Of a DNA stretch of 64,000 nucleotides, positions 44,811 to 53,111 are shown in pieces. Source of the DNA: Collinsella aerofaciens (GTDB taxonomy: Bacteria; Actinomycetota; Coriobacteriia; Coriobacteriales; Coriobacteriaceae); assembly GCF_015558785.1 (NCBI RefSeq), contig NZ_JADMOP010000005.1, positions 1-64,000 on the forward strand, given 5' to 3'. How positions within the stretch are numbered: the stretch's first letter is position 1; each line of letters begins with the position of its first letter. The position numbers were made by a program, and so were the translations under genes. The notes below the pieces were generated by a model, which made no database searches, was not told where the DNA came from, and was given only the letters and a program-made list of their open reading frames with translations.

Positions 44811-45191
44811 CTACTGCATGGTTTCGGGGGCTACCAGGTCGAGCATCTCGTGCAGCTTGTCGCGCGTGACGCCCAGGGCCTCGGCTTGGCTTGCCGCTTT
44901 CGCGAGCAGCTCTTCGATATGGCAGAGCTGGTTTTCACGCAAGAGCTCTTGGTTGCCGTCGGCGACAAAACAGCCCTTGCCTTGCACGGTGCAGATAAAC
45001 CCGAGCTGCTCCAGGTCGGCGTAGGCGCGCTTGGTGGTGATGACGCTCACGCCAAGATCGCTCGCGAGTGCACGGATGCTGGGGAGTTTGGCTCCCGCAG
45101 CGAGCGTGCCCGATAGAATCTGAGCTTTGACTTGCGAAGCTATTTGCTCGTAGATGGGCTTGTCGCTCGAATTGGATAGGATAATGTCCAC
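44811..45191 (-). CDS. GntR-family regulator, YtrA subfamily
   Basis: The 126-residue protein has the GntR helix-turn-helix (KPIYEQIASQVKAQILSGTL, then LPSIRALASDLGVSVITTKR and AYADLEQLGFI) and only a short C-terminal helical dimerisation part. That is the mark of the YtrA subfamily. The start is GTG with AAGGAG upstream. YtrA repressors control the ABC operon they lead, and respond to cell-envelope stress or glycopeptides. A strong inverted repeat GTGTATATA...TATATACAC just upstream (45219-45253) is the expected operator. Confidence 0.9.
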   Translation of the reverse strand: MDIILSNSSDKPIYEQIASQVKAQILSGTLAAGAKLPSIRALASDLGVSVITTKRAYADLEQLGFICTVQGKGCFVADGNQELLRENQLCHIEELLAKAASQAEALGVTRDKLHEMLDLVAPETMQ

Positions 45192-45253: not shown

Positions 45254-45302
45254 ATGCACAGCTATGCAAGAGGTAAATAGGGATTGTCCGCTCGTTCATT
45301 CA

Positions 45303-45519
45303 TCTCAATCTGTAACATCTGGAACCGGTTTGGACGGCTACCTGTTACAGATTGAGATTTTGCTAGCGGACCCCATTTGGTTGTCTCAATCTGTAACAAC
45401 TGGAGAAGTTTTTGGCTGCTAGATGTTACAGATCGAGATCTTTCTGGGACGCCCACCTGTTTGTCTTAATCTGTAACAGGTAGAGGTTCAAAAACCGTCT
45501 AGATGTTACAGATCGAGAC
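45303..45519. repeat. Six-arm alternating palindromic array
   Basis: The 15-base arm TCTCAATCTGTAACA and its inverse TGTTACAGATTGAGA alternate: forward at 45304-45318, 45385-45399 and 45465-45479, reverse at 45344-45358, 45425-45439 and 45505-45519. Spacing is 25-26 bases throughout, giving a 40-base step. The first pair is perfect (16 bp with its flanks), the second has one mismatch and the third two. The spacers inside each pair are related to one another; those between pairs form another group. It lies between the GntR operon and prfC and contains no gene. Confidence 0.9.
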
Positions 45520-45663
45520 AAACTGCTGCGGAGTGCCGCCATCGACTGCTACCCTAGGCCCCAACTGATGAATTTGTCCTGATAGGTGCCCTATGGCGGG
45601 ATTTCGCGGCTACAATAGTGCGGTTACATCGACGTAATGCACTCAATGCAAGAAAGGATCCGC

Positions 45664-47277
<1,614 letters not shown>

Positions 47278-53047: not shown

Positions 53048-53111
53048 ACGCTCTCAATCTCTAACATGCTCTTTTGTGCTTATTTGCGCAGACGATGATA
53101 CTCCTAATCGA

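Follow-up and report, generated by a model that had tools for sequence, protein, structure and literature searches.

Intergenic arrays of alternating 15-bp arms in Collinsella aerofaciens are putative REP/BIME-like protein-binding sites

The region between prfC and the gene of a GntR-family regulator in Collinsella aerofaciens contains a regular array of six alternating 15-bp arms. Judged from the sequence, it is best read as a REP/BIME-like array that has been retained as double-stranded binding sites. It belongs to a set of about 20 arrays dispersed between genes. We tentatively favour the explanation that these are arrays of protein-binding sites, that the binder is a domesticated protein of a group termed family A, and that the arrays are likely to serve chromosome organisation. 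No description of these Collinsella arrays was found in the literature searched.

The DNA analysed was a stretch of 64,000 nucleotides (the window). Six 15-bp arms alternate in orientation at a 40/41-bp step from 45303 to 45518, starting at 45303 (+), 45343 (−), 45384 (+), 45424 (−), 45464 (+) and 45504 (−). The steps from arm to arm are 40, 41, 40, 40 and 40 bp, and the spacers are 25, 26, 25, 25 and 25 bp long. Three of the six arms are exact copies of TCTCAATCTGTAACA and the other three deviate at position 4 or 5. When up to three mismatches were allowed, nine arm matches were found in the window (0.85 expected), and none of 100 shuffles gave nine or more. The array is intergenic and its two neighbours are divergent. 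The features are as follows.

44811..45191, minus strand: GntR-family regulator, neighbour
45292..45543, no strand: whole element, extent inferred by comparison with the empty sites in 11 species
45303..45357, no strand: unit 1 (arm, 25-bp inner spacer, inverted arm)
45303..45317, plus strand: arm 1, TCTCAATCTGTAACA
45343..45357, minus strand: arm 2, TCTCAATCTGTAACA
45358..45383, no strand: linker between units 1 and 2, 26 bp
45384..45438, no strand: unit 2 (doublet)
45384..45398, plus strand: arm 3, TCTCAATCTGTAACA
45424..45438, minus strand: arm 4, TCTCGATCTGTAACA
45439..45463, no strand: linker between units 2 and 3, 25 bp
45464..45518, no strand: unit 3 (doublet)
45464..45478, plus strand: arm 5, TCTTAATCTGTAACA
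45504..45518, minus strand: arm 6, TCTCGATCTGTAACA
45664..47277, plus strand: prfC, peptide chain release factor 3, neighbour

The six alternating, regularly spaced arms of the preliminary description were confirmed (steps 40/41; spacers 25–26), and its statement that no gene lies inside the array is supported. Its rejection of a CRISPR also holds: the repeats alternate in orientation, the spacers share a motif, and no cas gene was seen by eye among the flanking ORFs. The inferred element is flanked by the imperfect hexamers GTCCGC/GACTGC, which may reflect either target duplication or short-repeat deletion. Lone arm-like sequences away from the arrays, at 53052-53066 of the window and at position 1839 of L036, are possibly array remnants.

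The pattern TCTCRATCTGTAACA had 100 matches in the own genome at up to one mismatch, 67 of them exact, and a reversed-pattern control in the same genome had none. This agrees with the earlier suggestion of a REP-related repetitive element, as the repeat is a dispersed one of REP/BIME type. Nearly all of the 100 copies fall in about 20 intergenic arrays with 2–12 arms each. The genes flanking an array are convergent, codirectional or divergent, without preference for any orientation, and they are unrelated (thrS, clpB, PEPCK, dxs, gltB, tuf). Localisation of the arrays to ori or Ter was a trend only (P 0.07–0.33). Genome G000 has two near-identical arrays on the clpB side; the first (L033 1832-2047) adjoins a run of N, so this duplication may be a scaffolding artefact. 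Between two arrays of G000 and G006 lies a gene (325 aa in G000) that is apparently missing from G005 together with the stretch between the arrays (L172 compared with L042 and L159), which suggests array–array recombination.

All arrays of the own genome with more than one arm open with an outward TCTC arm and close with an inverted arm, and the building block is therefore a 55-bp doublet (arm, 25 bp, inverted arm). The arm core is almost invariant, and position 5 is A or G in roughly equal shares. The inner spacer is 25 bp long in 134 of 136 doublets from three genomes, and the linkers between units are 24–26 bp long with W-rich edges. Inner spacers resemble each other, with TRG adjoining the arm, an A-tract, CYA at the opposite side and G+C-rich shoulders. 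In 115 of 134 units the exact centre is covered by an A-tract 4 bp or longer, whereas 6.7 were expected after shuffling. The likeness that had been noticed among spacers within pairs is thus real (TRG, A-tract, CYA); the likeness noticed between pairs applies to the edges, which the linkers have in common, and not to the rest of the spacer.

The arms, the centre and the spacing of the units are under purifying selection. Among 118 orthologous unit pairs, the arm core had 2.25% differences per site and the centre base 2%, compared with 14.3% for the inner spacers. Array indels were about one quarter of flank indels, in pairs that were partly chosen for equal length. All 51 matched orthologous units agreed in spacer orientation. 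With 0 of 51 inverted, site-specific inversion at the arms was rejected, and the result also speaks against recombination across the arms. At arm positions 5 and 51 of all arrays, an A/G switch was seen in 36% of orthologous pairs; this switching is several-fold above the neutral transition rate and symmetric in direction. CpG/methylation decay was rejected as its cause, given the symmetric triples and the lack of CpG hypermutability.

Arrays were present in 24 of 45 Collinsella genomes, with 32–84 exact arms each, and the remaining 21 had 0–2 exact arms. The preliminary description would have been undermined by arms that are single-copy and unconserved; these counts, and the 100 copies in the own genome, are clearly the opposite. 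Among 298 Coriobacteriia genomes, the exact doublet was found in no genus other than Collinsella, and no array occurred in phage records or in 2.9 million viral contigs, where the only matches were stray single 15-mers. Most arrays share loci between species, with about 94% flank identity, and array length differs by whole units of about 80 bp. The prfC site is occupied by 134–136, 215–216 or 295–296 bp in 12 species and is empty in 11 clade species. Filled and empty alleles of this site are scattered over the tree, and the direction of gain or loss is undecided. Stray units in genomes without family A are degenerate (P = 0.04). One decayed unit each lies upstream of clpB in array-less G021 (L301) and G043 (L304), where the clpB region resembles a horizontal acquisition from the array clade. 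Outside this clade, G034 has a broken array; the unit in G042 is intact and differs little from one clade locus, which is read as transfer or contamination.

Other repeats were observed near some arrays and in related genomes. A second dispersed repeat, CCACCACAAAGGGGACAGGCACCTTTGTGGTGG, has 16 exact GGGGACAGGCACC cores in G000. Of 58 arrays, 13 have this repeat within 300 bp, frequently at a distance of about 34 or 58 bp (arrays in L031, L033, L039, L155, L164, L165, L167-L169, L173, L175 and L180). It fits the TIRYT consensus GGGG[AT][CG]A[CG] (PMC6006769), and in L146 it borders a Y1 gene on both sides. Unrelated, partly inverted repeats of about 40-bp pitch occur in other Coriobacteriia (L109 4725-4985 and L067 7057-7190; TATGGACTGAAGCGCGATTTTGCA; CGTATGCTTTTGGCCCG).

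Because Y1 (HUH) transposases are the partners of REP/BIME arrays in other systems, Y1_Tnp proteins were searched. The own genome encodes one such protein of 269 aa, a member of family A, which combines Pfam Y1_Tnp with several overlapping C-terminal HTH models (HTH_23/HTH_7-like) and scores 42.6 bits against the NCBIfam RAYT model (cut-off 80). Family A is present as a single copy in 23 of the 24 array genomes (71–100% identity). None of the 21 array-less genomes has it, and their best matches are at most 41% identical. The co-occurrence is strong in a phylogeny-naive test that takes no account of its one evolutionary origin (Fisher 5.8e-12); it is confounded by shared ancestry, and any clade-specific gene would fit equally. 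G036 is the sole array genome without family A, and the adjacent suf genes are likewise missing from its assembly, so an assembly gap is likely. The gene occupies the same locus throughout the clade genomes, with both flanks found except in G038 (one flank), and in array-less G025 this locus is taken by a diverged Y1 gene whose motifs are intact. No arms were found near family A genes within the loci of about 3 kb examined. Directly downstream of the gene in L124, at 2323-2361, lies a short sequence of which G006 and G036 carry several copies (82–90% identity).

Aligned outgroup homologues retain the HUH motif and the catalytic Tyr. Among the 23 family A members, Tyr is replaced by Ser in 19 and the HUH motif is also lost in 11; both are kept in 4 species. 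The HTH recognition-helix motif YTGI[SG]KSTxxRIVR is present in all 23, the reading frames contain no stops, and dN/dS is about 0.3 among Tyr-less members. The search for a RAYT-type gene that had been proposed earlier therefore returned a RAYT/TIRYT-related Y1+HTH gene that co-occurs with the arrays, but one that is mostly catalytically dead and situated away from them. Exact arm counts were 54–84 where both motifs are lost and 65–78 where both are intact, not clearly lower. Since arm counts hold where family A is catalytically dead, transposition is probably not what maintains the arrays, and this supports their reading as duplex binding sites. We infer that family A is a candidate binder of the arms.

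BIMEs group as many as twelve alternating repeats in intergenic clusters, which vary in length between strains and bind host proteins such as IHF and gyrase (PMC2817692, PMC6379681). The Collinsella arrays share with enterobacterial BIME/BIME-2 the intergenic, high-copy, regularly spaced repeats in alternating orientation. In contrast, BIME/REP repeats are imperfect palindromes with a GTAG/GTGG-like head, whereas the Collinsella arm is a single non-palindromic 15-mer that pairs only with other arms, without covariation or compensatory changes, across an inner spacer fixed at 25 bp. As in gyrase/IHF sites of BIMEs, there are features of indirect readout, namely a central A-tract with G+C-rich shoulders. 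However, the gyrase motif is long, degenerate and periodic at about 10.75 bp (PMC6379681) and gyrase is universal, while the Collinsella arms are strongly base-specific and clade-restricted. The Collinsella arrays recall REPIN/RAYT systems (PMC3116915, PMC2817692) in their inverted doublet unit, in the related Y1 (HUH) protein that accompanies them in the genome, and in a cognate gene that tracks the repeats (family A in 23/24 versus 0/21 genomes, phylogenetically confounded). RAYT genes differ in being flanked by their own REPs, while family A has no arms alongside, has mostly lost the nucleophile and often HUH, and accompanies stable array loci; HUH plus catalytic Tyr, which mark an active RAYT, are lacking in most members and present in 4. 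Class-2 Y1 proteins have HUH and Y---NP in common, and those of TnpA-REP subclass 2.1 (TIRYT) join Y1 to a C-terminal HTH, their genes being associated with GGGG[AT][CG]A[CG] inverted repeats (PMC6006769). Family A likewise has Y1 and a C-terminal HTH, and its own genome carries the GGGGACAGGCACC repeat resembling that consensus, but the 15-mer on which the arrays are built is unrelated, and catalytic degeneration has affected most members of family A.

Several other explanations were weighed. The predicted folding of each strand of the array is much stronger than that of shuffled sequence (z about −10.5 and −11.5), which would suit three structured RNAs of about 55 nt each from the intergenic region, as the preliminary description had considered. 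Such folds are expected of inverted duplex sites. Positions R5 and Y51 were paired across the palindrome in 31 of 69 units (33.7 expected), and inner-half complementarity was below chance, also once units were oriented by the A-tract (209 pairs, 238 expected). This lack of covariation between opposite positions makes a conserved hairpin unlikely, be it RNA or cruciform, and speaks as well against processing as single-stranded hairpins in the REPIN/RAYT style. An Rfam search with the array matched no family, and a scan of it gave no promoter-like or terminator-like site; the three-RNA explanation is thus extremely improbable. A multi-site operator, for prfC or the GntR/ABC operon here and for other genes of one regulon elsewhere, is also very improbable. 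The window array does lie between divergent genes, but the other arrays stand in all orientations beside unrelated genes and the prfC site is empty in 11 clade species. A coherent gene set was sought among the array neighbours and none was found.

Active or recently active mobile repeats of REPIN/BIME type, in which a RAYT/TIRYT transposase moves single-stranded hairpin units and arm conservation reflects transposition, would account for the alternating orientation, the intergenic position, the integral doublets, the gain and loss of units, the few similar units shared by different arrays and the RAYT-related gene in nearly every array genome. This is nevertheless rather unlikely, since array loci are conserved across species, the arms are conserved despite loss of Tyr and HUH, and hairpin covariation, a GTAG-type tag and arms beside the family A gene are all lacking. 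It is less improbable, yet still doubtful, that the double-stranded arrays serve another clade-specific protein, whether nucleoid-associated, partition-like or regulatory, and that family A is a mere fellow traveller in the clade. All of the evidence for duplex binding is independent of family A, no arms lie near its gene, and the co-occurrence is phylogenetically confounded. However, family A alone among the genes tested has the matching distribution, it belongs to a superfamily that pairs with REP/BIME arrays, and a limited search of array neighbours gave no other candidate.

In the favoured explanation, each 55-bp unit would present two inverted 15-bp sites, 40 bp apart, on either side of the central A-tract. 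Each unit may be occupied by a dimer or by two molecules bound to bent DNA, and units may stack along the array. The candidate binder is the clade-specific, single-copy Y1(HUH)+HTH family A, related to RAYT/TIRYT, which may have become a DNA-binding protein by way of its HTH. The arrays would have begun as substrates of its transposition and would now serve as double-stranded docking sites, and their most likely role would be BIME-like chromosome organisation rather than control of a single regulon. Against family A as the binder are the absence of arms beside its gene, unlike classical RAYT/REP pairs, and the 4 catalytically intact species; the explanation also leaves the fast A/G switching at arm position 5 without account. 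A more specific scenario is possible but not probable: one Collinsella clade would have domesticated a RAYT/TIRYT-type HUH transposase, turning it into a sequence-specific DNA binder without catalytic activity, and selection would have retained its former substrates as about 20 nucleoid-shaping docking arrays.

Whether REP/BIME repeats are kept as selfish elements or as useful host sites is a long-standing question. The Collinsella arms are under selection where the related transposase cannot cut, and maintenance is in this respect separable from mobility. The arms and family A also provide a directly testable candidate protein–DNA pair in a common human gut commensal.
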